A stretch of DNA of 64,000 nucleotides from Membranipora membranacea (Eukaryota > Bryozoa > Gymnolaemata > Cheilostomatida > Membraniporidae), in the NCBI GenBank assembly GCA_914767715.1, contig OU612072.1, forward strand, positions 5,516,001 through 5,580,000, written 5' to 3'. Positions 9,637 to 62,760 of the stretch are shown piece after piece. Both the position numbers and the translations under genes were made by a program. Every line of letters starts with the position of its first letter. Positions within the stretch are counted from its first letter, which is position 1. The notes beneath the pieces were generated by a model, which saw nothing but the letters and a program-made list of their open reading frames with translations, made no database searches and was not told the DNA's origin.

Positions 9637-9941
9637 CTACTGAATGTTACTTACATTCTCATAGTTCTTTTCTAGGCCTACATTGGCATAGGTAGACCTA
9701 TGACCTTGTGATGATGAAGTGACACTTCTAAGCTGATGATTATCTCCGCAGTTTGATTCTGCATACACATGATCATCTTCTACTCTAGCCCTGCTCAGCA
9801 CCTCATACTGTGAGGATAAGGTAGCATACTGATGATCTTCTTTAGAAGAGATTAAGTTATCGGGTACAGTCTCATATTCAGCAGTTGTTTGTGATTTGGA
9901 TGTCTGAACATCAAGGATTATCTCCTCATAGTCCCTTGGGT
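9637..9941 (-). other. Gene A last exon: tyrosine-motif cytoplasmic tail
   Basis: About 100 codons with DYEEI (Src-family SH2-like), EYETV, HQYATL, SQYEVL (matches ITIM S/I/V/L-x-Y-x-x-I/V/L), HVYAES, STYANV (ITIM-like and YxN Grb2-like) and NYENV. The frame stops at 9637-9639. A consensus donor AAT|GTAAGT lies 15 nt before the stop, so a longer alternative tail is possible. Gene B lacks this GTAAGT (GTTAGT), which favours use of the stop. Confidence 0.75.
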
Positions 9942-12900
9942 CTTATCAAATAGGAAACATACTAAATTTACTAATGATTCAGATGTAAAGATTCACAGGT
10001 AAAAATCATACTGTGGTCTGAAGATAGACACAAAATCAATAGCAAGGAAACTAGACGTTAATTTGAAACATAATAGAATTAACAAACAGATAAAACCAGG
10101 CTTGACAGTCCGTTCTTTATCTAGTTATTTCTCTGTCAAGTTATGCAAATCAACCTTCACAATTTACAATAAGGGAATTTGATTCGAGCAATGAGTGAGT
10201 TTTTGTGATAGTAGAAGCTAGAATTTCATCACTCACTGTGGGTCTGGGGAGAGCTTGCTGCCGGATAGTGCTCTTTGCCGCTAATACTATCTGTACTGCA
10301 AATGGTAGTGAAGCAGTATGAACTAAGGCCAGAGCAGCTAGGCACAATTTATTGAGGTTGGAGACAGCATAGGGTAAGTGACTTCTCATATTTCACCTCT
10401 ACTTTGAATTTTACATTTTCAAATATGCATTCACAGTCAGTACCATCATGAACCACAACATTGGTGTACATTAAAACTTCCTAACTTTGAATAAGTAAAC
10501 TTACTTCCTGGTTTTCTGCATATTTCTTTTCTTCAAAAGTATGACCAGTAATATGACGAGGGTACCAACAACCAAGGGTACAATCACTATTCCAGCAATG
10601 ACTCCGGATGACAGATCACCTTTAGGCTCTATACTCTCTGGGTCTGGTGATAGTGTTATATCTTCCAGAGGAGCTGTGGGGACACAATCAAATCTTGGCA
10701 AAATCCATTGGATGCAACAGCTTGAAGATACTTATCTTCTTAAAGCTGTGTCTGGCCCTTAATAAAGTATGATGGCATGAACCATAGGCGTATTTAACTA
10801 TCTCGAACTCTCGAATGTTAGAGGCAAGGATGGTTAGAGTGTTGGGAAAAATGTTCCACCCTCGAATCAAGTAATGAGGAATTGTCTTCTTTTTCTGTTA
10901 TTATTATTAGTTGTCCTCTCTTTGTCACTGGACATAAAAGTAAAATTTTGATATGAAACCAGTAGACTTTTTGTTGTCTATTGACATTCCAAGGTCATCA
11001 TAATTAATACTTTGGGATGCAACGAAGTTACAGGAAAATACAGATAGAGCAAATCTTTTCTCCCTAAAAACTTCCTCATGCTACCCTAATGCTACCCAAA
11101 TCTCTGGAGTATTGCTCTGTATATATTGTTACCCAGAAAGTCCCTTGACTTTTATCCCTCCAATCCTCTCATCAATATGCATATTTAGCAACAAAGCAAA
11201 GCAAGCACACCTGTCTGTTTTTGTTTTTTTTTCATCATCATCATCATGATCATCATTTCATTATTGATGATGATGGTTGGTGGTTGATTGATTGCTTGTT
11301 GTTGATTCATTGATTTTATTGTTGTGTTGATTGATTGAGACTGTCAACAGAACCCCACAGAACCACCACTTGGTCATCATAGTCATAGCTATCAATCATG
11401 GTCACAACACAGCCTCAGAGTCAGACCCACTGCAGTCATCATGGGATTGGCACCTGCTGGATTTATTCTGGGGAATGATGTTGATTTTCCAATCTTTAAC
11501 CTGGAGGTCAACAAGTCACTTACTTACCATTGGAGTTTGTCTGGTTATGTTAATATTCTCTACTCTAACAATTTGTCAGAGACTCTAACAAATTTGTTAG
11601 AGTCTCTAACAGATGCTTGTCTCCTGAAAAAATTTTTCCGCTGCGTTGGCCTTTTTTTGTTAGAGAGTTGACCAGACAGATTAAATACGCCTATGGCATG
11701 AACATGAGCATGAGATGAATCAAACAATTTTTGGCTCTGTATATTACACTGTAAATTTAGCAGGATCGTGCATAGTCATTACTAAGAAGAAGGATATGGG
11801 GATATAAGGATTGAATGCCTCAGTACCAGACTGTTGTTAAGAATTATTACTGTGACAACAACAACAAAAAATGTATGGCCTGCCACGTAGAACCATGCAG
11901 TCCAACTTATAAAATAAGGGGATAGAAGGCTTTCTAAATATGACTAGATGTTGTTTCGTATGGCAAGTTTTCTGATTGAAATAATCGATTTTTTATTCCA
12001 AAGGAATCCTTAAGATTTAAACAGACTTGTGAGCATCACATGCAGATCCAAGGTCTGCTTACACACTACTTTGCTAGCTTTATAAACAGGGTTATACCTT
12101 GAATATCAGCGATAGGTTGATCCAACACTTGAACAATAACATCGGTTTGTCCCTGTAAAAATAGTCAAAGTCAAAGACAAAGATGATTCAATAACTTTCT
12201 AGTATCACACTATGGGAGGCACATAGACATTCATAAAGAAAAATGCACTGATGTACCCATATCAGATTCGACTATGATGCGAACGAATTGCACCAATGCT
12301 AGCTGGATATAATCGTTATCAAGAGAAATTTTATTATTTTCAAGTTGATTTGTGGTTAACATATTTGATTTTAATTGAATTGCAAAGTCACACATCACCA
12401 AAACAAGGAAGCAGAATAGGTCACCATAGACCAGTTAGAGACTTGTATGGATGCAAATGCACTGCGTCCACACTTGGTACAAACAAAAACTTATGGTAGG
12501 GAAGTAACCTTTCAGAAGCATACTATACGAAATATTTGTGTTTATTGACCCTGGATTGTTTCCTAAGCTGTGGAAAAGACACCCATATAATAAGAATGGG
12601 AGCCAGAAGTTGTTTCATAAAGCATATTTTTATTTTTACATCAATCGAATTGTACACTGTTAGCTACTTCCTTCTTCAAATTCTAAAAAATTAATTGACA
12701 CCAACTAAAATGCCCCCTAGAGGCATTGAAATTAACTTCATGGTGTATTTAATAGGCTAAAAGACAATTTGTGTGCCAATTTTATCAGGTGTGTCTTATT
12801 AGATGTCATTTATAGGCCCAAAAGGTCATCAGGGTTAACAATCAAAAGTTTCAACATGAGCATGAGTGTCATAACTTTGGGTGTATCAGCAAATCATCTC

Positions 12901-15900
12901 ATCATGTAAATAGCAGTCTGCTTTATCAATTGAATCCCATTTAATTGGTTGTATCTCACGCGATACTAATTCTATGCCCTCCAATACGAGGCAATGATCA
13001 CGAAGCGATGTGATTAGGGTGCCAGAACTTCAACACGCTTCCCAGTTTTTTTACTCACTTTAATTATCTGGTTCAGTGACTCGTCATTCTTTTTCTCCCA
13101 TGAAATGAAACCTACCTCTATTCGGACATCAACGCCGTAGTAAACATCGTATCCAGATCCTTTTTCAAGTAGAACATTGAGAACTCCATTGTATATTTTG
13201 CCATCACCTACTGGAAATCGGTAGCCTGTAGAATAAGAATTAATGATTGATTGCAAGATAGTTAAGATCATATGTAATATCAATATGAAAAGTTATGATT
13301 TGGTCAGCGATGTGAATATTTGTGAAAAAAATCAAGCTACCAAGGTCAACTAATAACCTCATTGCAAGATCGACTAATAGTATCATGTCTTATCATCTAA
13401 GATTAGACTAAGTTAACTTTTATACAGCCATGACAAAATGATTAAGCTTGTTTACGTACCAGCTTGAGGGGGTTCTGTAAGAATGGCAGCCAAGTAATAA
13501 TCTAGACTGCAATCTGCTGCTTCTGTGAAGTTGAGTAATGGGTCAAATGTGGTAGGCCCAGCCCGTTCTGGTATGATCTGATAGGAACAAGACTGAGATG
13601 CTCGTCTCTTTCTTCCTCTTTCCTCTGCAGCAGTTTTCTTTGTGACAATAACTTTGTAAGCCCTGGAATACGACAGGCATGAAGATAGAAGTCTCAATTT
13701 TGGTGAAAACATCACAAAATTAATTCAATGTTTTGATTTGCTCTTTTCTTTCAGCTTCGAACATTGCAAAATTTAGGAAAAAAATTGACAAGCGTCTACT
13801 GATATATTTCCTCGTATTTGGGCAGCAATATACCTTAGTTTCTGTTCATAAAATTGTTTCCCCCAACAAATTAGAGCCTTTGTAGCATTTTCAAAAGTAG
13901 GAAGCTATCGAGGATGTTTACTCACACAGCATCAGCGTTTTCAGGTGTTGTGATGTTAGGAAGTGGTACTGGGAATATTCCACCTACTTCAGGAATCACT
14001 TCTTCTACAAAAACTCCCACTACAACAACAAACAAATCATTTCAGGATTATTAATTGATTTCAACCAGTTATCCCTTCCTGCATTGTTCAACAACAGATA
14101 TCACACCTGTATGCTCACCTCATCAGGATGAAACTTCTAGTTTGTGATATATCTGACTCCTATTACAGGTCAAGTCTGCATAATGCTTTTACTCATAAAT
14201 TCTTCATTGCCTATTGTAATAAGGGATCAAGGATGGAGTTTCGCCGTTCTCATAGTTTCCTCTTTCATTTGGTTGATAAGTACTCACGATTTATATGGGT
14301 GATGGTAGATACTTCTTCACTGGCAGGACCTCTGTTATATGTCTGGTTGTTAGATGTGAAGGCTGTGACATCACATTTCACTTCAGTACCAGCTGAGAAG
14401 CCACAGATATCTACAGATATTGGTAATGTTCCTGCAGGTACTTCCTTCTCTATATCCAGATCAGTGCCATTATGCTTACATGTAATCTACAGCAATGCAA
14501 ATGTAATCAGAAAAAAAATGAGAACAGGTGGGGGAAGAAAATTGAATCAGCTTTTGTCACTTTCCAAACCAGCCATTGGTAAGTTTGAATGTCCTGATCC
14601 TGTTTCAGTTATTTTGGTATCATTTAATTTTCACAGCATCAGTTTCCCTGTTGTGAAATCAAGTTTGGACTATTCAGACTATCCTTCCACATGCAGCTCA
14701 AACAACATAATAACATAAGGTAATTAATTGATAAATTTATATATCCAACCAGAGACTTTTCGTCATGAACCTGCTGTTACAACATTGAAGAGCCTTTTAA
14801 AGTTGTATATGAACTTACCAATATTTCAAGTTCGGTTGTGATAGGACACAGCAAAATTTTATATTTAATTAGTTCAGGTAAACTCACTTCGTATTTTGTG
14901 ATTGGGCCATTTTTGTTGCTCCCAGCTTTGAACCATCCGGCATTCACACATGTCTTGTTGACTGTGAATAGAGAAATGCCACTAGGTGCTTCAGTTGGTG
15001 CTGAAATAATGGAAATGAGTACACAGGAGCACTTTATCAGTTATAATGATACAACAAACACTTTTCCTAAGGCCGTTGACTCTTCTAGAGCAATTATAAC
15101 TTAGTTATTGTTCATTTAGGTTGCCAACATATTCCATTTAAAAGGGCTATGGTTTAAGCAACAAAGATAGATTTTCATACATATTAACCAGAGGAAAAAC
15201 GGTGTTCATTACTGTATACTAAAACTCACCTGCGGAAATGGATTTCAGGTCAAGTGTTGACCACACACTTTTCATTTCCTGGTGATTTACTGCTCTTACA
15301 CTGACTCCGTAATTTGTATAGGCCTTTACATTCACATCAAGAGATAGGTTTGTAGAATTATAGGTAGTGCCATTGACTGAGGTTATATAAGTGAGGACCT
15401 GGTTTGTCCAGGGCTCACAGCCAGTTTTACCAGGTACCTGAATGAAATAAAAAAAAGGTTTCTTTGTAATATCGGGTGCTAAAGTTTGTAATAGGAGATA
15501 TAACTCCCCAAACCATTTTAATTCTTTGCCTGCAATACTTTCAGCTGCATCCATCAATAATTACCTGCCAGCTTATGGAAAGCTTGGTTGGTTTTTCTTT
15601 ATTCTGATGATCGATCGACTGAGCCACATTGAGACCTCCTGCGTTCTGTGGTTCTGTTGATAGAAATAAAATGAAGATGAAAGTGTTGTAAAGACCCTTT
15701 TTGAAGACTATCCATGCCCTGATTCTTAAAAGGCAGATTACAATTCGACTCCCCATATTTGGTATGATATTGAAGGTTTAAGGCTATTTAAGATCACTAT
15801 GGCGACCTTTTAAATAGCCTAAGGGCACAGCTGAAACTATTAGCTTTACTGGGGAGAAAACTCTTCTTTAACTCCTGTCAACTTCCAAAATTGTCCCCTC

Positions 15901-18900
15901 TTTATCACTTTATAACATGTAAATGTTATCTTAATTTTGATTGGTTTTACCCCTGCAGGTAAAGGCAGTTGTAGCTTTCTGGAAGGTCTCTGTTTTCATC
16001 ACCATGTCATAGGTCAATAATCTTATCTCATAGAAGTAAGTTGTAGAAGGAGTCAGATCAATGTGATGGAAATTTATAGATTCTTCACCGTCCATTATGG
16101 GGAAATTTTGCAAGACTTGCTTTCTTCCATCAGATTCTACTAAAGTCAGAACCAACCTAGAAAATATTTAAAATTCAATGTTCAATACATGATACATGGT
16201 ACAACAGATTTCAGTGTGGCATATTTTCAGACTAAAAATTGTTAATTTTTAGTTTAGTTTCAAGTAAGTTGTGAATAGAGCTCTCCAACCTTCTTCCTTG
16301 GAATCCTGTGAGCTAGTCACTGTTATATGGCTTACCATATATACACTGCTAGGCTGAGGGCTTATGCCTTATATGTTTTAATCGAGACCTGTTCTTAATA
16401 ATGAATTGTTCGTTGCAACATGGTATCATGTTCGGTACAACTATTTGGTTTGATTAAAATACCAAGGATCAGGAGATGCTACTGCATCATCACAATAATT
16501 GGTTAATGGTAATATAGGTTAGGCTACACTGGAGGTATATGTTTATTTACAAAAAAATGAGACTATTTAAACGATATAATTCACAAACCTTGTGCTCTCG
16601 AATACCGTTTTATTGTATCCATTTAGGTTTGCTTTAATGGTCATATTGAAAGGTGTTCTGTCTTCTACTGAATGCTGAATAGCAATGGTATTTATATCTA
16701 TAAAACCTTATATATTTACATAAGGAAATATGGAATGGATGAAAATAGTCCAAACATTTTTGCCCAGCTCTTGATGGACAGACAGACAGATCATAAAAGT
16801 TGCAACTTCAAATGCGTGATGTATTTTTAAGTGATCAGGCCTCTGCTATTAAGAAAAATTGTTGTCATATATATTCTTATATATTACATGCAAACAAATA
16901 TTCCATTCAAACTTGTTGACTAAATTACCTTCAGGATACACAGACATACAAGCACTAATATTGGTGACAACTATTACACTTACCATCCTGACTGAATCCT
17001 TCCACAGTTACTTCTCTTAAGGTCACTCCATAGCCTTCTGCTGATTTGAAGACAGCGACATGTCTGGTTGATATGCTTGCATTATAACTCTGTTCTCTGA
17101 ACTCCCCAGCAGGTGAAGGTACTGTATAAATCTGTGTCCAGTCAGATAGGGCTATACTGGGAGATCGTGGGTTTTCAGTCACACTAGTCAGTACCTGAGC
17201 TCCGTTCAACCGTTGAGCTGTAGAAATATGAATGAGATTGTAATGATTACTATCATTGATATGGAGTCACCCTTTTAGAGTTAATATAATTATACTAATA
17301 GCCTGGGTGAATCCAATTGGTAGTAAAGAAGCCATAAATTAATTGCAATAGTTGTGAATTCGGAATAAAGTAAAACTTGTCCGATTTTATTCTATGGTCT
17401 ATCGGTCATGTGAGCACAATATAGAAATAGACTAAGTTGATGTCTGTGTATCTATGTCTATCGATCACAATGTTGAATTTAGTAAATAAATTTTCTTCAC
17501 TCCAGCAAGTCTCTACTATTTAAGCCTAAGTAAGTTGTAGTTTTACAATCAGCATGACATAACAAATGAGCAGGAACTCACATGGGATAAGAAGAAGAAT
17601 TAATGTCAAGCCAAGAACTTCTCCTTGTTCAAACTAACAAAGATGTTTTTGTTAGTTGGCTATTGATCGTGAATCCGAATATATGACATGACAGCCTGCC
17701 CAGGCTAGGTCTGGTGTATGTCTCAATGTTTGGGATCTTCCATGATCAATTGTTCCATCCCCACGCGCCCTAAATTGTATATATCGAACCCACTTTGTAT
17801 ATTTATTCACTCACTGATAAAGGTGCCTTTACTGTCGGATCGAGAAAGATCACAACAGTTCACTGCTGGCAGAGTTCTTTATAATACTGAATGCAGTTTT
17901 TCGGCAGTTTGATGATTTTATTACTGAACTACACCCTGGGGCAAATGCCCCAGGCAACTGATAAATTGCAACGCCAAGTTGTAACTGAATCTTCAGAGCA
18001 AAAACCACTGTTCTTTATACCGACCTGTATAAATAGGTCGTAAAAATAGAAACAGGTGGGATGATACGTCATCATTTTGATGGCCAACCTCCGCATTTAG
18101 ATGGTAATTAAATGTGCAAAAAATGGAAGTAAATGCGGAAGAGTATAACAATTAATCAGATTAGGACCATGGCAACCATGACAGTGCAATATACAATGCC
18201 TAACTTCATGTAGAGTCATGCACCTAGGCGTGTCACATACAGTGTATGTGACACATGCACCCCCCTGGTTGCGATCGTCCTCGATCGCTTTAACTGGTTC
18301 AAAAAACATTACAGCTTATGTCACACAAGGATAATCATTGCAATATAAAATTTAAAACCTCAAAATCTCCTGAAATACAAACAAATAAAAAATGTCATGC
18401 ATAAAAGACGGTCATAACAAAATCATGACATTCCCTTCCAAGGCTGAAGAACCTTAACAACTGCTTCAGGTCCATTAACAAAAAAAATATATCCCACTTT
18501 CCTCTCAACTCTAGATCTAAGAACCTAAGCTTTGCTTAGATTACAGGACAGACGAAGGTATAAAATTCATGAAATATTATAATGCTGCTTTCCTGCACAA
18601 CTATCATTAAAAAATCGGCATCGCAGGAAATTCAAACGATAAATATATAAATTGCATGATCAAGGTTGTGTCGATGGTAATAATATCAAATAATTCATTA
18701 CATCCTAACTAATACAGTGACCATATTATTTTGTGCTGATCCTTGCACTAATACTGCTGCTATATTAAGATCAGTTGCCAGTTGGTTGTAGTCAGCTGCA
18801 TTCCATAATCTTTTACTCTTAGCGGATCTTAGGTTACGGCTGCCTAATGTTTTTATTGAAGTTTTTCTATTTTTTTGAGTTAAAGTGTTCACACCACCAG

Positions 18901-20908
18901 AGTAGTTTGTCTGCTGTTGTAGACTGAGACTGAATAGAACTGGTTGAATAAAATCAGGAAATTGCAGAGGTACCTTGTCAGTTGGTGAATCATGAGCAGA
19001 AGATCAAATGTCATCACTAGTATATCAGCTTCCATATGTTTTGTCTCTACATCATCTAAAAAGTCCGTGTCCATTTCTCCTTATAGTAATGTAGACGATG
19101 TAGACACATATGGTTCCATTATACTGCTTGCATTAGATCATCTACTCCAAAGACATTTTCCTCCAAGTCCAAAATCTCCATCCTCTTTCTTGTATATTCA
19201 ACGCTATCAGTCTCATCATCTGAAGGTGTGAAGTTCTCTCCTCACTCGGTTGGGCACCAATTGTCGGATCGAGAAAGATCACAACAGTTCACTGCTGGCA
19301 GAGTTCTTTATAATACTGAATGCAGTTTTTCGGCAGTTTGATGATTTTATTACTGAACTACACCCTGGGGCAAATGCCCCAGGCAACTGATAAATTGCAA
19401 CGCCAAGTTGTAACTGAATCTTCAGAGCAAAAACCACTGTTCTTTATACCGACCTGTATAAATAGGTCGTAAAAATAGAAACAGGTGGGATGATACGTCA
19501 TCATTTTGATGGCCAACCTCCGCATTTAGATGGTAATTAAATGTGCAAAAAATGGAAGTAAATGCGGAAGAGTATAACAATTAATCAGATTAGGACCATG
19601 GCAACCATGACAGTGCAATATACAATGCCTAACTTCATGTAGAGTCATGCACCTAGGCGTGTCACATACAGTGTATGTGACATTACCACGATTACATATG
19701 GTTATCCTATAGATGTAATACACCTTCTCCAAATCAACTCTCCACCAGCTTTTTGCCGACAACTCAGTGTGGGAAAATAGTCCATCATCTGCTATCAGAT
19801 CGCTACAGCTTTCTGGAAGTGGAACTCCATCCACAGCTACACCAGACGGTTGCACACCAGTCACACCAGCAGCACTTGATGGCCTACTGTAATAAGATGA
19901 CTGATCGGCTGGTTTTCCTACAGCTACATTCAATCCAGCGTCTGTACAACCTGTATGATTATTAAATCATAATCTAGAGCCATAACATGAGGTACATCAA
20001 ATGTGATGTTGAGTTGTGATGAAAGGGTTACATCGCTAGTATAAGCCGATAACCTATGTTGGTAGATTGTAGCTCAAGAGCGAGGGTGTGAGAAGTAAGG
20101 CTTAGAGTGTTTGCTGTGAATAGTTACAATTAGGTGGTAGAATTTCATAACAAATCTTTGAAAACGGTTTCATTGGAGCTTCTCAATAGAATAACGAAAG
20201 TAAATATGCCTTTGGTGCTGTGATGGAATAAATAACAAAAGGGAATGTTATGTAAAGTCAGCGGTGCGTCGCAGTAATTATTGCATACAAGATTGATGAG
20301 GCATAATTCACTGCGTTTCCATGTTAACTTTGAGGTCGATCTGAGGCTATTTCCAGAGCTGTTCGAGCCATCGAAACACCTGCAGGCTTGCACTAAGCCC
20401 GAAGGTTCAGCTTGCACTAAGCGGCTCGCACCATAGTGAGCTGGCGTGGCTGAGCGGTTAGCAAAGACTATCACGCAAGATGCCCTGGTCCCGTGGCGGC
20501 GGATTCTTTTCTCGTTTTCTTCTCAACTCTATCCATGGGAATGGATGCATTTTACGAGGGCACGCAAAGAGGTGACAACTCAGCTCGATCCAGACCGACC
20601 TCAAACCCACAGGGAAACGTGGTGTTTATGAGACTTCCTGGCTCCTCATCAGTCTAACAAGACAATTCAAAGTGTGGCTTTGACCGCCAACACGACTATC
20701 CCAAAATCACTGATAACGGAGGATACCAAACGTACCGACCGTTACAAGATCCTTCAAAAGTGTTTCGTGGTCTCAAATAATGACGATACAAACCCCTATA
20801 TTCAGGTGAAGTTTAAATCATATAATTATCTTCCATAATTACGCACTAAGAGACATGACAGTTCTTACCCAATAGAGCAACGAAGATGACGACGTACACA
20901 AGATACAT
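9637..20908 (-). CDS. Receptor gene A: FTP-FN3-TM-ITIM protein, lectin exon split by an LTR element
   Basis: Exons in transcript order: 20869-20908; 19683-19950 continued by 17815-17828; 16984-17217; 16589-16697; 15951-16156; 15565-15653; 15230-15437; 14888-15000; 14288-14486; 13926-14019; 13460-13662; 13059-13225; 12098-12152; 10505-10673; 10237-10295; 9637-9941. All junctions keep phase; without the insertion it would be about 843 aa. Exon 1 is a signal peptide (MYLVYVVIFVALLG). Exons 2-3 form the FTP fucolectin domain (NVAVGKPADQSS, SHT, WWRVDL, CNRG, RLNGA). Exons 4-9 are FN3-like. Exons 11-12 are receptor-phosphatase-like with RGRKRR. Exon 14 holds the TM helix and exons 15-16 the tyrosine-rich tail, including ITIM-like SQYEVL and STYANV. 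The LTR element at 17833-19682 sits after CNRG; reading into it hits a stop at about 19526, so this allele probably makes no full receptor. Confidence 0.78.
10237..10295 (-). other. Gene A exon 15, short cytoplasmic exon
   Basis: A 59-nt exon between a pyrimidine-rich acceptor (CATTTGCAG) and donor ACA|GTGAGT. It reads TDSISGKEHYPAASSPQTH and enters in phase 2 and leaves in phase 1, exactly as needed to join the TM exon to the tail exon. The same holds at 27517-27575 and 46430-46488, which is the main reason for calling it. Confidence 0.72.
10505..10673 (-). other. Gene A exon 14: transmembrane helix
   Basis: An acidic juxtamembrane segment is followed by about 23 hydrophobic residues (GVIAGIVIVPLVVG...) and a basic stop-transfer KKRNMQKTR. 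This gives a type I membrane topology with the lectin outside. Donor is GAA|GTAAGT. Confidence 0.88.
10783..11695. mobile_element. Non-autonomous hAT-like DNA transposon in gene A intron 13
   Basis: A 913-bp insertion between perfect 8-bp target duplications GCATGAAC (10775-10782 and 11696-11703). Terminal inverted repeats start CATAGGCGTATTTAA on both ends. Genes B and C have the empty site (about 27980 and 47000). The interior has CAT/GATT-rich simple repeats and no transposase. An 8-bp duplication is typical of hAT, but the family assignment rests on that only. Confidence 0.85.
17833..18253 (-). repeat. LTR (3' in element orientation)
   Basis: 421 bp, TG...CA, preceded in element orientation by a G-rich polypurine-like tract. 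Confidence 0.92.
19262..19682 (-). repeat. LTR (5' in element orientation)
   Basis: 421 bp and apparently identical to its partner. Its first bases form an inverted repeat (TGTCACATACAC and GTATGTGACA). Translation from the gene A lectin frame runs into this LTR and stops at about 19526. Confidence 0.92.
20445..20475 (+). other. tRNA-like box A sequence in intron 1 of gene A
   Basis: GTGGCTGAGCGGTTAGCAAAGAC resembles the D-arm/box A of tRNA-Leu/Ser. No clear box B or acceptor stem follows. A sister copy is at about 56049-56073. Probably a decayed tRNA-derived repeat and not a tRNA gene. Confidence 0.3.
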
Positions 20909-21074
20909 CTCGAGTACAATTCAGCCGCGTTGTTGGCTGCTGATATTTCCTTTACGGGCAGGTTACTGTATTTCTTATTTTATCAAAATATCCTGAAAAA
21001 TCTGCTGCGCTACAACAGCTGGATTCTTCTACTGAACAGCATTCACTGAAATAAAGGATGATATCATTTCATGT

Positions 21075-45829: not shown

Positions 45830-46134
45830 CTACTGAAAGCTACTTACATTCTCATAGTTCTTTTCTAGGCCTACATTGGCATAAGTACAGCTATCACCTT
45901 GTGATGATGAGGTGACACTACTAAGCGGTTGATTATCTCTGCAGTTTGTATCTGCATACACATGATCATCTTCTACTCTAGCCCTGCTCAGCACCTCATA
46001 CTGTGACGATAAGGTAGCATACTGATGATCTTCTTTAGTAGGGATCAAGTTATCAGGTACAGTCTCATAGTCAGCAGTTGTTTGTGGTCTTGATGCTTGA
46101 ACATCAAGGATTATCTCCTCATAGTCCCTTGGAT
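45830..46134 (-). other. Gene C last exon: tyrosine-motif tail
   Basis: Full-length tail with DYEEI, DYETV, HQYATL, SQYEVL (canonical ITIM), HVYADT, CTYANV and KNYENV, ending VSSFQ and a stop. The gene C tail is the complete reference against which the truncation in gene B can be seen. Confidence 0.78.
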
Positions 46135-49100
46135 CTTATCAAATAGGAAACACACTAAATTTACTAATGACTCAGATGTAAAGATTCACAGGTAAAAATC
46201 ATACTGTGGGCTGAAGATAGCCACAAAATCGATAGCAAGGAAACTAGATGTTAATTTGAAACATAATAGAATTAACAAACCGATAAAACCAGGCTTGACA
46301 GTTCGTTCTTCATCTAGTTATTTCTCTGTCATGTTATGCAAATCAATCTTCACAGTTTACAATAAGGGAATTTGATTCGAGCAATGAGTGAGTTTTGGTG
46401 ATAGTAGAAGCTAGAATTTCATCACTCACCGTGGGTTTTGGGAGAGCTTGCTGCCGGATAGTGCTCTTTGCCGCTAATACTATCTGTACTGCAAATGGTA
46501 GTGAAGCAGTATGAACTAAGGCCAGAGCAGATAGGCACAATTTATTGAGGTTGGAGACAGCAGGTGAAATATGAGAAGTCACTTACCCTATAGGGTAAGT
46601 GACTTCTCATATTTCACCTCTACTCTGAATTTTACATTTTCAAATTTTCATTCACAGTCAGTACCATCATGAACCACAACATTGGTGTACATTAAAATTT
46701 CCAAACTTTGAATAAGTAAACTTACTTCTTGCTTTGCTGCATATTTCTTTTCTTCAAAAGTATGACCAGTAATATGATGAGGGTACCAACAACCAAGGGT
46801 ACAATCACTATTCCAGCAATGACTCCGGATGACAGATCACCTTTAGGCTCTATACTCTCTAGGTCTGGTGATAGTGTTATATCTTCCAGGGGAACTGTGG
46901 GGACACAATCAAATCTTGGCCAAATCCATTGGATGCAACAGCTTGAAGATAATTATCTTCTTAATGCTGTGTCTGGCCTTTAATAAAGTATGATGGCATG
47001 AGCATGAACATGGGCATGAGATGAATCGAACAATTTTTGGCTCTGTATATTACACTGTAAATTTAGCAGGAGCGTGCATAGTCATGAATAAGAAGAAGGA
47101 TATGAGGATATAAGGATTGAATGCCTCAGTACCAGACTCATGTTAAGAATTATTACTGTGACAACAACAACAAAAAATGTATGGCCTGCCACATAGAACC
47201 ATGCAGTCCAATTTATAAAATAAGGGGATAGAAGGCTTTCCAAATATGACTACAGGTTGTTTCGTATGGCAAGTTTTCTGATTGAAATAATCGATTTTTA
47301 GTCCAAAGGAATCCTTAAGATTTAAACAGACTTGTGAGCATCACATGCAGATCCAAGGTCTGCTTACACACTACTTTGCTAGCTTTGTAAACAGGGTTAT
47401 ACCTTGAATATCAGCGATAGGTTGATCCAACACTTGAACAAAAACATCGGTTTGTCCCTGTAAAAATAGTCAAAGTCAAAGACAAAGATGATTCAATAAC
47501 TTTCTAGTATCACACTATGGGAGGCACATAGACATTCATAAAGAATAATGCACTGATGTTCCCATATCAGATTCGACTATGATGCGAACGAATTGCACCA
47601 ATGCTAGCTGGATATAATCCTTATCGAGAGAAATTTGAGTATTTTCAAGTTGATTTGTGGTTAACATATTTGATTTTAATTGAATTGCAAAGTCACACAT
47701 CACCAAAACAAGGAAGCAGAATCGGTTACCATAGACCAGTTAATGACTTGTATAGATGCAAATGCACTGCGTCCACACTTGGTATAAATAACAACTTTTG
47801 GTAGGGAAGTAACCTTTCAGAAGCATACTATACGAAATATTTGTGTTTCTTGACCCTGGATTGTTTTCTAAGCACACCCATATAATAAGAATGGAACCCA
47901 GAAGTAGTTTTATAAAGCATATTTTTATTTCTACATCAATCGAATTGTACACTGTTAGCTACTTCCTTCTAGAAATTTTAAGAAATTAACTGACACCAAC
48001 TAAAATGCCCCCTAGAGGCATTGAAATTAACTTCATACGTGTATTTAATTGGGTAAAAGACAATTTGTGTGCCAACTTTATCGGGTGTGGCTGTTATTAG
48101 ATGTCATTTATAGGCCCAAAAGGTCATCAGGGTTAACAATCAAATGTTTCAACATGTGCATGAGTGTCAAAACTTTGGGTGTATCAGTGAATCATCTCAT
48201 CATGAAAATAGCAGTCTGTTTTATCGATGGAATCCCATTTAATTGGTTGTATCTCATGCAATACTAATTCTAGCATTCCAATACGAGGCAATGATCATGA
48301 AGCAATGTGATTAGGGTGCCAAAACTTCCAAGTTTTGTTACCGGCACCGGAACTTTGCCGACCTGCCGACTGCCGACAGGCCTGTTCTCAGATATTTCAG
48401 TCCTAGCATGTGATTACCAACCTAAATGCAAAATGTAAGTGCATATGCTAACAGTATGCAAGTGCATATACTAACAGTACCCCCAGCACATGTTGGTAAC
48501 CCTTTAGGGCAGTGAACTGACTCAACTTAACAAGTTTCTTGCTTCTTCTCCCCTTCTTCCTCTCCCTTGTGAAAAAATTTCTTTTTGCATGGGGGCCGCC
48601 ATCTTTCTTTAAACTGTTTTGGGAATTGCGCTCTCATTCTCATTTTGAAAAGACAACCCTCATGGTTTTTGAAAGAAACATTGCCTTTTTATTGTTATTC
48701 AATAAAATACAAATGTTGGAATTTTTATCCAGTGCATTTCTCTCATTCCTTTTATGCTGCCTGGGATTTAATAGTGTTTTGAGTTTAGTTCAAGTATGAA
48801 TGAAGCTCTCTGGATTCAGGGATTTAATAAATTGTTTTTATATTTCCGAAATGTATCATAATAGTTTATCGGTAGCCAGTTAAGACCGGTTCACTATCAT
48901 TAAGCAGTGTAGAGCCTCTGCTGGATTGATTATCAATACCCAACTCTACATACCACTGTGTCAGCAAATTTGGCCCAATGCATGAAGATATGAGTTAGGC
49001 ACTTCTGACAAGTTAAAAAGAGGTCTAGTCTACGCAGCTACAACTGTGACAATATTGTTGTTGAATCTATTGGCAAAGGGCTATCACCCATTTCGATTTC

Positions 49101-49266
49101 GTTTAGATCAAGCCATGGTAAGCGGTTCTGTTTCATGCTGTTATCAGTTTTACTGGGTTCCATTGCCTTATATTACTCGCTGCTGAAGAAAGGCTCATTG
49201 ACATGAAACAATTTCGCCAATTTTATTAACCTTTGTGACCTTTGGGAAGATTTATTGGTCCTAATC

Positions 49267-49307
<41 letters not shown>

Positions 49308-52300
49308 TAGCTATGGGGTGCGACCCATGCAAGTACTAGGGAGGGAAGAGGTCTTAACATAGTAAACCTATTTTTAGGTCTATGTGTCTAAACTGTTTGC
49401 ATAGTATTGCTTGGAACCCTTAGTAGGCACTGATGTGTACTTTGTGATAAGTATCAGTACACAGTCGTTACCATTGTCATTGTAATTAAACCCTCATTTA
49501 GATCAAACCTAGGCAAATCAGCCTTTTCCAATATTGTTGATACATTTGTAACTAAATCAACCAAGCCTCATGAATCATATCATTTAATCTTACATAATGT
49601 TAATAACTTGTATTTTTGTTTGCCACTCTTTGTTTCTTCTTTTCTTTTTTCATCTTATTCACGCAATTTATGATACCATGCTTTCATTATCCTACTCACT
49701 ATATTATAGTATGTAACACCCTACCACTTATATCTTTTTATTCAAGTCATTTTTTTGTATCAATGTTAATGTGTATGAGGTCACCAAGTTATTTTTAATT
49801 TGCTTTAATTATAAACTTTTAGAAAACCTCAATAAATAAATAAATAAAATTCATATTTGCATAAAGCTTAGTTTAATGCAGCAGTGATCAACCTCTCTGA
49901 TCTTGATTCTGTACTAACCATTAGTGATGATGATCTCCATGCTATTAATGGTAAGACACACCCATCATTCGAAAGTTTCACAGGGAAGATAGTCATTGAC
50001 TTGGTAGCAGCCAAATCAAAAATAATCTCATGCAATTTGGGCTTCATCTTACATCGTTCAACCGCAACTTTTTTTTGCTGCCACACTGCCAACAATGGTT
50101 CGTTGTTGGCTCTCGCTATAGACTACAGCCCGCTGTGGTGATTTTCCCCTTCTTGATAATATGCATGAAGCTTAGTTTAATGAAGCAGTTGTCCTCTTTT
50201 TGTCAGTGAGGATGCAACTCCAAAATATTATACCATAATTATAATTCAAAATCGCGGCCCCCATGCAAAAAGAAAAGTTTTCACAAGGGAGAGGAAAAAG
50301 CAAGGAAACATGGTATGTTCAGTCTGTTCACTGCCCTAAATGGGTTACCAACATCTGCTGGGGGTACTGTTAGTATATGCACTTGCATACTGTGAGCATA
50401 TGCACTTAGCATTTTGCATTCAGGTTGGAAATCAAATGCTTGGACTGAAATATCTAAGAACAGGCCTGTCGGCAGTCGGCAGGTCGGCAAAGTTCCGGCG
50501 CCGGTTTTGTTACTCACTTTAATTATCTGGTTCAGTGATTCGTCATACTTTTTCTCCCATGAAATAAAACCTACCTGTATTCGGACATCAACGCCGTAGT
50601 AAACATCGTATACACATCCTTTTTCAAGTGGATTATTGAGAACTCCATTGTAAATATTGCCATCACCTACTGGAAATCGGTAGCCTGTATAATAACAATT
50701 GATGATAGTTTGTGACATAGTTAAGATCAAAAATATGGAAAGTTATGATTTGGTCAGCGATGTGAGTGTTTGTGAAAAAAATCAGGTAACCAAGGTCACC
50801 TAATAACCTTATTGCAAGAGCGACTATTAGTATCATGTCTTTTCATCTAAGACTAGACTAAGTAAACTTTTATAAAGCCAGCAAAGTGATTAAGCTTGTT
50901 TTCGTACCCACTGGAGGAGTTTCTGTGAGAATGGCAGCCAAGTAATAATCTAGACTGCAATCTGCTCCTTCTGTGAAGTTAAGTAATGGGTCAAATGTGG
51001 TAGGCCCAGCCCGCTCTGGAATGATCTGATAGGAACAAGACTGAGACGCTCGTCTCATTCTTCTTCCTTCCACTGCAGCTGTTTTCTTTGTGACAATAAC
51101 TTTGTAAGCCCTAAAATACATCTAAAAATTAATATCAATGATACCAATAAGTCATTGCTCTTTCCTTTCTGTTTTAGTCATAGCAAAATTTGGGATAAAA
51201 ATTGGAAAACGTCTACAGATATATTTTTTTTATATTTCTGCAGCAATATACAGCAGTTTCTGCTCATAATATCATTCACCTCAATACATCGGAACAGTTG
51301 TAACGGTTTTCAATAGAAGGAAGCAATCAAGGCTGTTCACTCACACAACTTTAGCATTGTCACGAGGTGTGATGGCAGGAAGTGGTACTAGGAATATTCC
51401 ACCTACTTCTGGAATCACTTCTTCTTCTTGAGGTACAAAAATATCAACTGCAAACAAATATTCCAAGAAAATTAATTGATTTCAACCAATCATCTCTGCC
51501 AACATTGTTTAACAACAGATTTGCCAAGTTCATCAGGACAAAACCTCTAGTTTGGAATGTATCTGGCTCTTATTACAAGTCAAGGCTGCAAAATTCTTTT
51601 ACTTGTAATTTTGATTGACTTTTGAATTTAAGGATCAAAAGCGGAAGCAGCTCTGTCGCCATAGTTTTTCTATCTCATTTAGTTGACAAGTACTCACGAT
51701 ATGAATGAGTGACAGTTGAGACTTCTTCACTAGCAGGACCTCTGTTATATGTCTGGTTGTTTGATGTGAAGGCTATGATATCACATTTCACCATCGTACC
51801 AGCTGAGAAGCCACAAACATCTACAGATATTGGTAATGTTTCTGCGGGTACTTCCTCATTTGTATCCAGGTCGCTACCACTAGCCCTACATGTAATCTAC
51901 AGCAGTAAATGTAATCAAGAGTATGAGCACAGGTGTGTAAAGAAAAAAATCATTATTGTGGCCTTTAAAAACAGTCATAGGGTAAAATTGAATATCAACA
52001 TTTTAGTACAAATTTACTTCTCACCGCATGAGTTTCCCCGTTTTTGAAATTAAGTTTGGGATGTTTTGAATATTTTTCGACAATTAATCTATATATTAGT
52101 GTATACAACTCGAGAGTTTTTTTCCCTAACCAAACCTTACAATCTTTTTTATTTGATTAAGACGCAACAATTATTCCCATACTAGTTTTAGGTTAAACTC
52201 ACTTCATATTTTGTGATTGGACCATTCTCATTGCTCGCAGCATTGGACCATCGGACATTCACACATGTCTTATTAACCGCTAGTAGAGATATGCCGCTAG

Positions 52301-55300
52301 GTGCGTCTTTTGGTGCTGAAAAGGATAAGAAGTAAGAACTGGCCTGAGCTGATTCATGACCAATGATGAAACGACCACTTCTTCCACAGTCTGGTGCCAT
52401 AGAGTTTGCAAACATAATCATTTAAAAGGCTATGGTTTGAGCTGACTAGTTCAATTTGCATGGACCGTAGCCGGAAGAATTATGATTTATACCACATTTA
52501 TCTTAAACATACCTGCAGTTATGGATTTGAGTTGAAGATTTGACCACACACTTTTCTTATCCTGGTAATTCACTGCTCTTACACTGACTTCATGATTTGT
52601 AAAGGCCTTCACATTCACGCTTAGAGATAGGTTTGTTGAATTATAGGTGGTGCCATTGATGGAGATTTTATAGGTGAGGACCTGGTTCATCCAGGGTTCA
52701 CAGCCAGTATTACCAGGTACCTGCAAGTTACATAGCGTATATAAGTTTAGAACAGGATAACGCTAACTAAACCATTTAGCTGTTTTGCCCGAAATAGATT
52801 TCGCTCACTATGCGCTGTATACATTACCTTGATTTCTCTACACCCCTATTACATCCATTGTTGCTAATTAACATTAATGGCGATGTGACAAAACAGGTGT
52901 GTATGACATGGTTACCTGCCAGCTTATTGAAAGTTTGATGGGTTTCTCTTTATTCTGATGATCAATCCTCTGACCTACATTGAGTCCTCCTGCACTCTGT
53001 GGGTCTGTTGATATTAATAGAGAGAAAAGAAAAGCGTTATTACGACCCTGCTTGAAGACTAATCCATGACCTGATTTTTAAAAGGTAAATGACTATATCA
53101 AAATGTTCAAATTATTTTAACTCATATTTATTCAGACATAATCTCGTAATAATTTAAGTAATTCCAAAGAGCACTACAGTTATTATGCACAACCTGCATG
53201 TACAGACTTTTTGTTCCATGAAAATCGCAAAGCAAGAGTGTTGTATTATTCCAAGTGACAAATAAATGATTGGTTTTACCACTGCAGGTATCAGTAGCTG
53301 TAGCTTGCTGGAAGGTCTCCGTTGTCATCACCATGTCATAGGTCAATAACTTTATCTCATAATTGTATGTTGTAGAGGGAGTCAGATCAGCGTGATGGAA
53401 ATTTATTGATTCACTACCGTCTGTTATGTTGACATCTCTCACAACCTGCTTGTTTCCACCAGACTTAATTAATGCCAGAACCAACCTAGAAGAGAATTCA
53501 AAGTTCAATATTATTGTATACTAGATTTTAGTGTTGTATGTTCGGAGGACAAAAAGTCTTCTTCAATCTAACTTTCAAATTTTTAGCTTCAGATAAGTTG
53601 TAAATGTAGCTTTCCATCCTTCATCATGGCATCAAAGTGAGTGAAACATAGTTTTGAAACGTCACAGGTACTAACGGCTCAGGAATGTCTAACTAGGAAC
53701 AGTTAGTCAGATGATAAATTCACCACTGTAATAGGGTAACACGCCTGGTGCACAAGTAAAACTATTGGTGGTTGAGTGGTAAAAAGTTCAAGGAAGCAGC
53801 AGGTCCTCCTGTAGCCTGTCTTACCAAGCTATGTTGGGTGGGTGGGGGGAACTCACCCCCCAACCACCGTACAAAGCTTGTTAAGACAGGCTAGTCCTCC
53901 TGTATCATTTCAATTCCTTGATAATGGTAACAAAGGTTATACAGGTCAATTTTAATTACCAAAAATATGAAATCTGTAAAAATATTATTCGTTCTTACAT
54001 TACATGACTAGCAAAATGAACTGTGTAATTTTTTGTTGAATTAAAATGTAAACGGAGTACTATTCTTGGCAGAAGAGGATTTTGATGAATTATGTCATAA
54101 ACCTTGTGTTCTCGAACACTGATCTATTATATCCATACAGGCTCGCTTTTATGGTCATATTAAAAGCTGTTCTGTCTTTTGCTGAATGTTGAATATGAAT
54201 GGCATCTATGTCTGTAAAACAGGATAAATATGACTGGCGATTAAGGTATAAAGGTACCTGACTTGTGCCCCACTCTTGATGAATAGAATGGGCAGGTCAT
54301 AAATGTTGCATCTACAAAAATTGACTGGGATTTACAAGCGACATTGAGATTTGATCATGCCTCTGTTTCAGCAAATGTATCTAAAACTGCAGATAACTAA
54401 CTTGATATGCCAAGTTAAGTAACAATTGTCTTCATATATGCTGTATTACAAATATATGCAATGAATAATGCGTTCAAACTCGCTGACCAAATTACCTTTG
54501 TTATCCGCAGTCTTAAAAAGTACTTACATTTGTGACCGATAGTACACTTACCATCTTGACTGAATCCTTCTACAGTTACTTCTCTTAATATTACACTTTT
54601 CCCTCCATGTAAATGGAAGACAGCCACGTGTCTGGCTGATATGTTTGCATTGTATCTCGGGTCTCTAAAGTCCTGAGCAGGAGTAGGTACAGTATATATC
54701 TGTGTCCAGTTAGATAGAGTTGTACTGAGAGATGGGGGGTTGTCAGCTGTGGTATTCAGTACCTGCGCTCCACTTAGCACGTAATCTAAAGAGGGAGCAC
54801 AGGAAAGATGATATTTTTAATCACGAATTCAAATCCTCTGGTCTCACTGACAATAGCTACACACCAGATTAAAAAAGTTAGGAGGACACCAGTAGTGTGT
54901 ATGGGCCTATAACCTTGAGATTGTATTGAGCATACCGATATACCTGTTGCATGCAATATTAAAACAAACATCTGCATAGCTAATAAAAATATTGAAGCAC
55001 CAACATGAGAGTTTACCCATCAACAAAAGCTTAATGCATGTGATCTAAGGTCTACATAAGGATATATTTTTCTATTAAAAAAAATACAGTATTTCAAACC
55101 TCGTTTAACTCATTGTAAAATTATTGGGAAACTTCTTTCTGCAAAATCACTTGGGTTGAATTCCATTTTATGTTTTGTTGCTGCATTGTTGTGCTTTCAA
55201 ATAGGCTATTTAATGTGTATATAAATTTTATTTGCCGGTCAAGTCAGACCTATGCTTTATATCCAGTATGCATGTTGAACTAATTCATACTCACTGAGTT

Positions 55301-56382
55301 GGTAGCCACGATTACAAAGGGTTATTCTGTAGATGTAGTAGATCTTCTCAAGGTCCACTCTCCACCAGCTGTTTGCCTTGGGTTCAGTGTGGGAAAACAG
55401 ACCGTCACCTGGGTTTAGACCACTACAGCTTTCTGGAAGTGGAACTCCATCCGCTGCCACACCAGGCGGCTGAACACCAGTCACACCAGGAGCAGTCAAT
55501 GGCCTGCTGAAATTAGACGACTGAGTGGCTGGTTTTCCAACAGCTACATTCACTCCAGCATCTGCACAACCTGTATGATTATTTAATCAGAATTTAGCAC
55601 CATGGCATGAGGAACATCAAATGTGATGTTGCTAGTACAGGCTGATATCCTAAATGTTGGAAGATTGTAGCTCAGGAGCAAGAGTGTGAGGAGCAGGGCT
55701 TTGAGTATCCGCTGTGAATAGTTGCAATTAACTGGTAGGGTTTCATAACAATTTTTTGGAAATCCAAAACTGTTTTCATTAAAGCTTCTAAATAGAACAC
55801 TGAAGGTACATATGCCTTTGGTGCTGTCATTGAATGAATAACATAAGGGAATGCTATGTAAAGCCAGCAGTGCTGCGCAGTCATTATTGCATACAGGATT
55901 AATGAGGCATAACTCACTGCATTTCCATGTTAATTTTGAGGTCGAGCTGAGGCTATTTTCAGAGCTGTTGAGCCATCGAAACACCTGCAGGCTCGCACTG
56001 AGCCCAAAGGTTCAGCTTGCCCTAAGCGGCTCGCACCATAGTGAGCCGGCGTGGCTGAGCGGTTAGCAAAGACTCTGACGCGATCAATCTAAGCCGACCT
56101 CAAAAATCACATGGAAACAGTGTGTTTATGAGACTTCCTGTCTCCTCATCAGTTTAACAAGACAAATCCAATTATGTGGCTTTGACCACACCGCCAACAT
56201 GAATATCCCATCATCACCAATACCATAGGCTACCAACCATACTAACTGTTTCAAGAACCTTCAACAGTGTGGGTGGTTTGAAATACTGACCATACAAACA
56301 TATAAATACTTCCCATAATGCACTAAGAGACACAACAGTTCTTACCCAATAAAGCGACGAAGATAACACATGCAAGATACAT
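45830..56382 (-). CDS. Receptor gene C: intact FTP-FN3-TM-ITIM receptor
   Basis: Exons in transcript order: 56346-56382; 55295-55570; 54552-54785; 54103-54211; 53280-53485; 52916-53004; 52513-52720; 52203-52315; 51698-51896; 51345-51447; 50908-51110; 50518-50684; 47403-47457; 46726-46894; 46430-46488; 45830-46134. Total 2532 nt, about 843 aa, no internal stop. Residues 1-15 are a signal peptide (MYLACVIFVALL), about 17-180 the FTP domain (NVAVGKPATQSS, SHT, WWRVDL, CNRG), about 183-490 three FN3-like modules, each of two exons, and about 525-648 the receptor-phosphatase-like module with RRMRR and YYLAAIL. The TM helix is at about 688-712, and the tail has eight tyrosines. No enzymatic domain. 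An Arg in the RLxGA lectin motif is changed (YVLSGA). Predicted role: cell-surface glycan-binding receptor with inhibitory or adaptor signalling; this is inference. Confidence 0.86.
46562..46619. repeat. Perfect 58-bp palindrome in gene C intron 14
   Basis: Two 29-bp arms meet with no spacer (centre TA at 46590/46591). Gene A has only the right arm (about 10372-10400). Gene B has a deletion of the same place (about 27640). Confidence 0.95.
48341..50504. mobile_element. hAT-like DNA transposon with long TIRs in gene C intron 12
   Basis: A 2164-bp element with 8-bp duplications TTTTGTTA (48333-48340 and 50505-50512). Terminal inverted repeats of about 260 bp start CCGGC(A/G)CCGGAACTTTGCC on both sides. 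Right-hand insertion lies 13 nt into the intron, leaving the donor GTGAGT (50512-50517) intact. The interior has a (TA)n tract (49270-49309) and a 27-bp direct repeat (about 49858 and 50163) but no recognisable transposase. A and B have the empty site. P-type elements also make 8-bp duplications, so the superfamily is tentative. Confidence 0.88.
49270..49309. repeat. (TA)n microsatellite
   Basis: About 18 TA dinucleotides inside the transposon. Confidence 0.95.
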
Positions 56383-62756: not shown

Positions 62757-62760
62757 GAAA

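Follow-up and report, generated by a model that had tools for sequence, protein, structure and literature searches.

The window, a stretch of 64,000 nt of the Membranipora membranacea genome, contains three tandem receptor genes on the minus strand. They belong to a larger array in which tyrosine-tailed and phosphatase-carrying copies are mixed, one pair of copies shares a closely matching head, and the 3' halves have been homogenised. Our leading reading, held with moderate confidence, is that these genes encode type I receptors following the plan of an R2B-like receptor phosphatase, in which a docking tail would replace the phosphatase exons, while siblings would keep the phosphatase and heads would be exchanged. 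The occurrence of phosphatase-tailed and phosphotyrosine-tailed receptors sharing heads suggests a putative paired receptor system.

Genes 1, 2, and 3 (9637..20908, 25183..35938, and 45830..56382, respectively; minus strand, as are all features below) comprised 16 exons each, with predicted products of 837, 803, and 843 aa. In the exon models rebuilt from the DNA, GT-AG boundaries were present at 15/15 introns of each gene, the phase series was identical in all three, and there were no internal stops; the matching 16-exon models rule out chance ORFs as the source of the genes. The 55-nt exon 13, with at most one difference between the copies of genes 1–3, was included because the reading frame was restored only with it. 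Gene 1 encodes a tyrosine-tailed receptor, gene 2 has a divergent head and a tail truncated by a frameshift, and gene 3 was lesion-free as far as seen. The initial annotation had described three minus-strand, phase-matched 16-exon genes and had assigned them a lectin-type head, FN3 units, a receptor-phosphatase-like module, a transmembrane (TM) segment, and a multi-tyrosine tail; the rebuilt models bore out both the genes, including the outer coordinates 9637 and 56382, and this plan, that of type I receptors in tandem. As a separate observation, genes 1 and 3 were 92–98% identical over exons 11–16, 93–97% over introns 12–15, and 94–97% over the spacers, values that would fit haplotype duplication.

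Each product is predicted to begin with a signal peptide encoded by exon 1 (20869-20908 in gene 1, 35887-35938 in gene 2, and 56346..56382 in gene 3, where it starts MYLACVIFVALL and is hydrophobic by reading). The F-type-lectin-like head is encoded by exons 2–3 of gene 3 (54552..55570; 55570-55295 and 54785-54552) and by the corresponding exons of gene 1 (19950-16984) and gene 2 (35579-34587). Pfam F5_F8_type_C_2 (PF22633) matched genes 3 and 2 at 6e-8 and 2.5e-9, respectively, both above the curated cut-off, in a scan that took in these two genes, and the gene 2 head matched the F-type lectin FBP32 (1.9e-13) and eel agglutinin (7e-6) in the PDB. By sequence, an F-type fold domain is therefore indicated by Pfam for genes 2 and 3 and by the PDB for gene 2. 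The F-type lectin motif consists of H, R, an acidic residue, and R/K, given in a review as HX24RXDX4(R or K), and the motif residues of the eel lectin are His52, Arg79, and Arg86 (PMC5712786). The complete motif was found in 0/3 window genes, and both the acidic residue and the CC of the F-type lectin site were absent from genes 1–3. Gene 2 came closest: its H, R, and R are spaced as in the eel lectin, with 26 and then 6 intervening residues, and it departs from the eel site in nothing but the acidic residue and the CC; gene 3 had V in place of the second R, and gene 1 had a shortened loop in this region. By reading, an H, R, R set could also be assigned in genes 1, A, and F (letters denote further copies of the array), with the loop altered or the exon edge uncertain. 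Because the published motif is incomplete in all three window genes, the initial proposal of glycan sensing, taken as binding at a fucose site, was unsupported in that form.

Three FN3-like units follow, each encoded by two exons with symmetric 1-1 phase (exons 4–9 of gene 3, 51698..54211; 16697-14288 in gene 1 and 34315-30559 in gene 2). Pfam fn3 matches (8e-9 in gene 3 and 4e-12 in gene 2, above the curated cut-off) covered a single stretch of gene 3 and two stretches of gene 2, the other units being recognised by alignment and pattern only. Exons 10–12 encode the membrane-proximal module that resembles R2B receptor phosphatases (50518..51447 in gene 3, with a furin-type RMRR; 14019-13059 in gene 1; 30296-29328 in gene 2, with RKRR). 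Its matches, which point to FN4 of PTPRU and PTPRM, were weak: Fn3_PTPRU was hit below the cut-off (0.003 in gene 3 and 0.016 in gene 2), a three-sequence profile of the module reached PTPRM in the PDB at a weak 0.024, and the gene 3 module alone scored 0.31 against PTPRM, a poorer match than ribosomal protein S1 (0.023). Each protein of genes 1–3 had a single R-X-[K/R]-R furin-type site, separated by four residues from a Cys; the furin loop of PTPRM likewise ends at a Cys, C642 (PMC9800333). The site was missing from array copies B and F. Neither a MAM nor a sushi domain was matched by Pfam in genes 2 and 3, and the one Ig match was weak (Ig_Rha78A_N, 0.003, below the cut-off, over the FN3 region of gene 2). 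The module profile picked out 79 pattern stretches in IMG/VR, none of which was confirmed as a relative. Overall, the window genes share with R2B receptors (PTPRK, PTPRM, PTPRT, and PTPRU) an FN3 stem and a TM segment, and perhaps a membrane-proximal FN3 with a furin-type site and then a Cys, while sequence matches are weak and they differ from R2B in having an F-type-lectin head rather than MAM-Ig, three FN3 units plus the module, and a tyrosine tail without a phosphatase domain; the tandem cytoplasmic phosphatase domains that characterise R2B were absent from the window genes.

Exon 14 encodes a stalk and the transmembrane helix, identified by reading (46726..46894 in gene 3, 10673-10505 in gene 1, and 27903-27756 in gene 2), and exon 16 encodes the tail (45830..46134 in gene 3, with YEEI, YETV, YATL, YEVL, YADT, YANV, and YENV; 9941-9637 in gene 1; 25183..25382, shortened, in gene 2). 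The up to eight tyrosines initially counted per tail were present in genes 1 and 3, whereas gene 2, with its frameshift, has six cytoplasmic tyrosines. YxxI/L/V accounted for 6/8 tyrosines in genes 1 and 3, a number matched by 0 and 2 of 20,000 shuffles, respectively. Canonical ITIMs ([SILV]xYxx[ILV]) numbered 2, 1, and 1 in genes 1, 2, and 3 (shuffle p of 0.04, 0.18, and 0.26), not clearly above shuffled tails. SQYEVL is the single canonical ITIM common to the three genes, and SxYxx[ILV] recurred at its position in 10/10 tails inspected, in one case downstream of a stop. The description of the tails as ITIM-tailed therefore holds for this one site, but the remaining sites are YxxPhi and YxN.

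The cluster of three proved to be real and yet only part of a larger array at C8 5.44–5.83 Mb. On C8 as a whole, 11 tail-exon loci were found, and arrays also occur on C3 (25.0–25.3 Mb) and C6. Protein-tyrosine-phosphatase exons were matched at three loci within this array, A, J, and K; A is the sole phosphatase-type copy read, J and K being known from matches alone, and one of K's phosphatase matches contains a stop. In gene A, Pfam matched 3/4 phosphatase stretches tested (3e-11 to 6e-13), the WPD was present, and the HCSAGVGRTG signature was intact when joined, being split by an intron as HC|SAGVGRTG, so that A adds phosphatase exons to the likeness with R2B. Five exons of the first phosphatase domain join in frame, and the hint of a second domain comes solely from translated stretches; two cytoplasmic exons could not be placed, namely the linker after the TM segment and an early exon of the first phosphatase domain. 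A full-length gene A product is doubtful because exon 12 contains a stop and its usual donor reads ATGAGT. Exons 12 and 13 together measure 222 nt, and by the phases of genes 1–3 their joint skipping would preserve the frame and might by-pass the stop. The initial annotation had named a downstream phosphatase exon as evidence against its reading; none was found for genes 1–3, but siblings in the array carry such exons, and they had been missed because they lie outside the window. An overlooked phosphatase exon in the window was ruled out, since tblastn with gene A's phosphatase pieces found none and neither did a six-frame signature pattern, the latter blind to an intron-split signature like that of gene A; the kinase check of the window consisted of one pattern. 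Phosphatase relics beside the tyrosine-tailed genes were absent from the 260 kb searched, window included (one other match, E 0.3), which rules out an origin of the tail by recent in-place loss of phosphatase exons. Since siblings carry phosphatase exons, the family is better viewed as a branch of a receptor-phosphatase family.

Gene A and gene 1 were 96.6% identical over 5330 bp, with 0 differences in the 549 nt of exons 3–5 and 19/264 differing positions in exon 2 (93%). This similarity ended in intron 12, at A position 5459188 (some 50 bp short of exon 13), and comparisons with genes 2, 3, and G gave the same break point; the TM exon of A had diverged (about 77%). We read this end of similarity as a probable exchange point. 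At the DNA level, a near-identical ectodomain on different signalling ends was seen in one pair only, A and gene 1, and exon 12 of A contains a stop. The case for close heads on both tail types depends on this pair, since J and K are known by matches only and their heads and modules are, segment by segment, 53–56% and 51–68% identical, respectively, to those of gene 3. Heads in the array fall into two identity bands. Over exons 2–8, the heads had w values of 0.22–0.32, indicating net purifying selection and ruling out positive selection on the heads as a whole; dS was saturated, and not estimable, in 4/30 rows (FTP and FN3a with gene 2). The family had been called rapidly changing; more exactly, the heads are constrained overall and differ through age and exchange, while the 3' halves are near-uniform between copies. 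Genes 1 and 3 were ruled out as simple alleles misassembled in tandem by a dS of 0.5 over exons 2–8. For the tail, w was 0.51 (CI 0.29–0.85) between gene 3 and X, the most divergent copy, and not different from 1 among genes 1–3; 2/9 tail comparisons excluded w = 1, both with X.

The lesions in the array bear on the view that it is mostly decaying, with recent duplication and gene conversion spreading lesions and few or no copies still working. Gene 1 carries an LTR element where exon 2 ends (17833..19682), with two identical 421-bp repeats (19262-19682 and 17833-18253), TG..CA ends, and GTAA at both flanks; the element is not present in gene A, and exon 2 of gene 1 ends at a weak donor because the insertion separates the exon from a GTGAGT farther on. 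The frameshift in gene 2 leaves a tail ending in ...VYAEYMRR, with a remnant of the original tail end out of frame (25083..25193, tblastn), and intron 5 of the same gene holds a decayed extra copy of the second exon of FN3-1 (32981..33100; tblastn 45–47% identity, E 3e-4 to 7e-4; frame broken). Tails of F and G are also frameshifted, that of H has a stop, and that of I has an altered end; the exon 12 stop is common to A and G, and B has stops in exons 5 and 7. Such damage would be expected of a decaying array, but gene 3 is without a visible lesion, the tails of genes 1, 3, L, and X reach their natural end, and the w values of the heads and of the tail against X point to constraint, which makes general decay very unlikely.

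Two further readings concern function. In one, heads and FN3 stems would mediate cell contact, with the tail as an adhesion-signalling scaffold and no immune or recognition role; it draws on the R2B-like module with its furin-type site, on the homophilic trans contacts described for R2B ectodomains (PMC9800333), and on the net purifying selection on the heads. We consider it unlikely, since tandem expansion, copy decay, two bands of head identity, and exchange would be more usual for recognition receptors. Distinctly unlikely, in our judgement, are stand-alone glycan-sensing inhibitory receptors whose heads would bind fucose-type glycans and whose ITIMs would recruit SHP phosphatases, the phosphatase siblings being irrelevant: the F-type lectin relatives of the head, the ITIM recurring in 10/10 tails, and the H, R, R sets of gene 2 and of 1, A, and F would suit such receptors, but the acidic residue and CC are missing, gene 3 has V, canonical ITIMs are not clearly more numerous than in shuffles, and a phosphatase sibling, A, has a head in common with gene 1.

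The reading we prefer, a branch of R2B-like receptors with two kinds of tail, would work as follows. On an R2B-like plan, the lectin-type head would take the place of MAM-Ig above the FN3 stem and the membrane-proximal FN3 with its furin-type site, and would bind a ligand on another cell or surface. By general motif rules, Src-family kinases would phosphorylate the tail tyrosines, the ITIM and YxxPhi sites would recruit SHP-type phosphatases, and the YxN sites would recruit Grb2-type adaptors. Phosphatase-tailed siblings on the same or a related ligand may dephosphorylate the tyrosine tails, in which case the mix of the two kinds would set a signalling threshold. More tentatively, recombination at one fixed site in the gene, intron 12, might move one head between phosphatase-carrying and tyrosine-tailed receptors, so that enzyme and substrate would meet at the same ligand, and the array could possibly be a self/non-self or microbe-recognition locus.

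The SIRP, PILR, and KIR paired receptors have near-identical ectodomains on opposite signalling ends and are kept alike by exchange; their tails are activating or inhibitory, both borrowing cytoplasmic enzymes. Here, unlike in those families, one partner appears to carry its own phosphatase, and the fold is another. The Fester co-receptors (FcoR) of Botryllus schlosseri are multigene type I receptors with long tails mixing ITIM and core YxxI/L/V, with copies that differ in the signalling end (PMC12065747). Their ectodomains consist of V-type Ig, sushi, and C2-type Ig domains, whereas the window genes have a lectin head and FN3, and the tail swap is between ITIM and hemITAM in FcoR but between phosphatase and docking tail here (PMC12065747). 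From F-type lectins, to which the head is related by Pfam and PDB sequence search, the genes differ in the incomplete fucose motif and in joining the head to FN3, a TM segment, and a tyrosine tail; neither the word fibronectin nor the word tyrosine appears in the main text of the F-type lectin review (PMC5712786). No described counterpart of the architecture appeared in the titles and abstract openings searched, which lie mostly outside the subscription literature and are thus weak evidence of novelty.

In this system, the phosphatase appears to belong to one side and the tyrosines to the other, in the same array and, in at least one case, beneath closely matching heads. Provided that the genes are expressed, the setting of thresholds by phosphatase and docking receptors could be tested compactly in this array, which would also be a candidate recognition locus in an animal genome.

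The three minus-strand genes at 9637..20908 (gene 1), 25183..35938 (gene 2), and 45830..56382 (gene 3) were rebuilt at the DNA level, with the copies compared against one another and exon borders placed at GT-AG sites. Each comprised 16 exons with identical phases across all 15 introns and an open frame (837, 803, and 843 aa, respectively), bearing out the exon plan of the initial annotation. Exon 13 (55 nt) was located because the phases demanded an exon there; it had good splice signals and at most one difference between the three copies. The predicted order of signal peptide (N-terminal, judged by reading), lectin-like head, three FN3-like units, receptor-phosphatase-like module, transmembrane segment (TM), and tail was also recovered, with a linker following the TM and a weak match for the module. 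The FN3-like units occupied two exons each, and Pfam detected one in gene 3 and two in gene 2. The module (exons 10–12) matched Pfam Fn3_PTPRU below the cut-off (0.003 and 0.016) and PTPRM in a profile search (0.024); with the gene 3 module as the sole query, PTPRM scored 0.31 and was outranked by ribosomal protein S1 (0.023). The module thus appears weakly similar to the last FN3 domain of the R2B receptor phosphatases (PTPRK, PTPRM, PTPRT, and PTPRU). Each protein contained exactly one R-X-[K/R]-R, with Cys as the fifth residue past it, and the furin loop of PTPRM is described in a passage of PMC9800333 as closed by a Cys.

The head (exons 2–3) matched Pfam PF22633 (6e-8 in gene 3 and 2.5e-9 in gene 2), and the gene 2 head matched FBP32 in the PDB at 1.9e-13, which points to a relationship with F-type lectins. 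PMC5712786 gives the fucose-binding motif as HX24RXDX4(R or K), its eel lectin residues being His52, Arg79, and Arg86. In an alignment with that lectin, gene 2 retained H, R, and R spaced as in the eel protein, with S replacing the acidic residue and CC absent. According to the models, gene 3 carried V at the second R position, and the gene 1 loop was shortened at the site of an LTR element. By this alignment and reading, none of the three genes had the full motif, gene 2 being the nearest. The fucose binding that had been ascribed to the heads is not to be assumed, and it is possible for gene 2.

Genes 1 and 3 each had eight cytoplasmic tyrosines, six of them in YxxI/L/V, a number reached by 0 and 2 of 20,000 shuffles, respectively, and gene 2 had six, including four in YxxI/L/V (p 0.003). 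Gene 1 had two canonical ITIMs, and genes 2 and 3 had one each (shuffle p 0.04, 0.18, and 0.26 in gene order). We take YANV and YENV to conform to the Grb2 rule and YEEI to the Src-SH2 rule. Judging from these motif counts, the tail is predicted to combine docking sites of several kinds with a single ITIM that is constant, so that the proposed ITIM tail of up to eight tyrosines held for the tyrosine number in genes 1 and 3 and for that ITIM, but not for the remaining, mixed motifs. The gene 2 tail was frameshifted, its missing end still being readable out of frame.

The window lies at 5516001–5580000 of contig C8 in the 339-Mb, 18-contig genome. Searching the whole genome with the last 320 residues gave at least 49 matches. 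Among them were at least 11 tail-exon loci on C8, ten at 5.505–5.812 Mb and one at 5.002 Mb, and four weaker tail matches (36–42% identity to the tyrosine tail) at 25.006–25.335 Mb of contig C3, remote from the C8 array. The head query gave 41 matches genome-wide. C8 carried 16 first-head-exon loci, at 4.999 and 5.44–5.83 Mb (two of them in sibling gene B), which fell into two bands of identity to gene 3 (73–99% and 49–59%). A further partial head match occurred at 2.075 Mb of C8, and contig C6 had an array of head matches at 2.48–2.91 Mb. In this single assembly, the sequence covered was continuous at C8 5.44–5.70 Mb (400 letters N) and in short pieces beyond.

A phosphatase-domain search of the genome, with 150 of 374 candidates scored, gave at least 158 matches. 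Those listed included C8 5451728–5453143 (sibling gene A), 5742252–5743776 (J), and 5797048–5798758 (K; one of three with an internal stop), J and K being known from matches alone. In all three loci, they lay downstream, in the gene direction, of same-strand module matches. Four gene A stretches were tested against Pfam Y_phosphatase: three matched at 3e-11 to 6e-13 and one at 0.06. The WPD loop was present, and an exon ending in HC joined in frame to one starting with SAGVGRTG through candidate GT-AG sites; by eye, second-domain-like stretches came after this first phosphatase domain. Two exons, a linker and an early one of the phosphatase, were not located, and a full-length gene A product is doubtful and may not be made.

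Gene A and gene 1 had 5330 bp in common at 96.6%, with no differences in the 549 nt of exons 3, 4, and 5 and 19 in the 264 nt of exon 2, and they were the sole pair shown to share a head across tail kinds. Alignable similarity of gene A stopped at 5459188 against genes 1, 2, 3, and sibling G alike. Exon 13 differed from that of gene 1 at 7 of 55 positions, identity of the TM exons was about 77%, and past the TM the cytoplasmic exons of gene A and gene 1 showed no resemblance that could be found. A downstream phosphatase exon, which would have spoken against the initial annotation, was not found in the three genes: the 260 kb searched near tyrosine-tailed genes yielded no phosphatase relic, and one other hit (E 0.3) was chance-like. 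Dense arrays of phosphatase-domain exons were seen at C3 11.8–12.7 and 33.0–34.0 Mb, contig C11 6.83–7.01 Mb, and C6 11.60–12.10 Mb; in the last, which is perhaps a larger sister array, they were interleaved with F5/8-type lectin exons.

Exons 1–6 of gene 2 were 46–62% identical to their counterparts in genes 1 and 3, and none of the introns in this region aligned at the settings used, whereas exons 11–16 were 88–100% identical in every pair and their introns mostly 92–97% where alignable (intron 11 against gene 3, 85–88%). Between genes 1 and 2, four-fold sites matched at 19 of 54 in alignment columns 1–300 and at 126 of 131 in columns 481–840. The dS values of exons 2–8 and 9–16 were 1.59 and 0.07 (genes 1 and 2), 0.50 and 0.15 (genes 1 and 3), and 1.86 and 0.16 (genes 2 and 3), respectively. 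These diverged 5' and near-uniform 3' halves are attributable to recent exchange or duplication of the 3' halves. The spacers downstream of genes 1 and 3 (1269–8824 and 37020–45194) were 94–97% alike over about 7.5 kb; the duplicated unit was therefore the 3' half of the gene plus the spacer. The family had been described as rapidly changing, a description that calls for revision: the heads evolve under net constraint (w 0.22–0.32). Tails among genes 1–3 (w 0.49–0.64, CIs spanning 1) were indistinguishable from neutrality.

Ten of the 11 C8 tails were surveyed, leaving aside those on C3, and four (genes 1 and 3, and siblings L and X) had the natural end. The B tail read beyond it. The last tyrosine was missing from the F and I tails, as were the final two of the set from those of G and gene 2, and the H tail had a stop past the first tyrosine. 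Gene B had stops in exons 5 and 7, and A and G had an exon 12 stop in common. X, the most divergent tail (50% identity), kept five of the seven exon-16 tyrosines of gene 3 (w 0.51, CI 0.29–0.85), and L (67% identity) kept all seven (w 0.56, CI 0.30–1.08); w was 0.54 for L and X (CI 0.32–0.90). The CI excluded 1 in only two of the nine comparisons, gene 3–X and L–X. Because tyrosines are kept and w is below 1 against X, the tail seems to be preserved in the long run, even as single copies decay.

The LTR element at the end of gene 1 exon 2 had a pair of identical 421-bp repeats with TG..CA termini and was flanked on either side by GTAA; it was absent from gene A. Its insertion is judged recent and is perhaps polymorphic; since GTGAGT now lies behind it, the donor used by exon 2 in this assembly must be a weaker one. 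Gene 3 intron 12 contained about 2.2 kb with 89% inverted ends (48340–50505), absent from genes 1 and 2, and gene 2 intron 15 contained about 1.8 kb with 82% inverted ends (25557–27318). A minus-strand reverse transcriptase ORF (57002–58027; Pfam RVT_1, 8.5e-26) and short tandem repeats at 60523–60759 (about 57/114 bp) and 62759–62992 (109 bp) were also present. Elsewhere, a contig end (C1:1–2000) carried a long CCCCAAA array grading into CCCCGAA, a telomere-like repeat that is unusual relative to the usual animal one.

R2B-type phosphatases operate at cell contacts. The closest working parallel found in the literature searched was the Botryllus fester co-receptor family, whose members are described in PMC12065747 as varying in their ITIMs, hemITAMs, and core tyrosine motifs; membership in that family was rejected, the ectodomain being different. 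The C8 array contains phosphatase-exon members alongside docking-tail members, and in at least one case the two kinds have closely matching heads. The simplest mechanism would be that the two tune each other at a ligand they share, and we infer its every signalling step: a kinase would phosphorylate the docking tail, SHP- and Grb2-type proteins would dock on it, and the phosphatase-tailed siblings would strip the phosphate from it.
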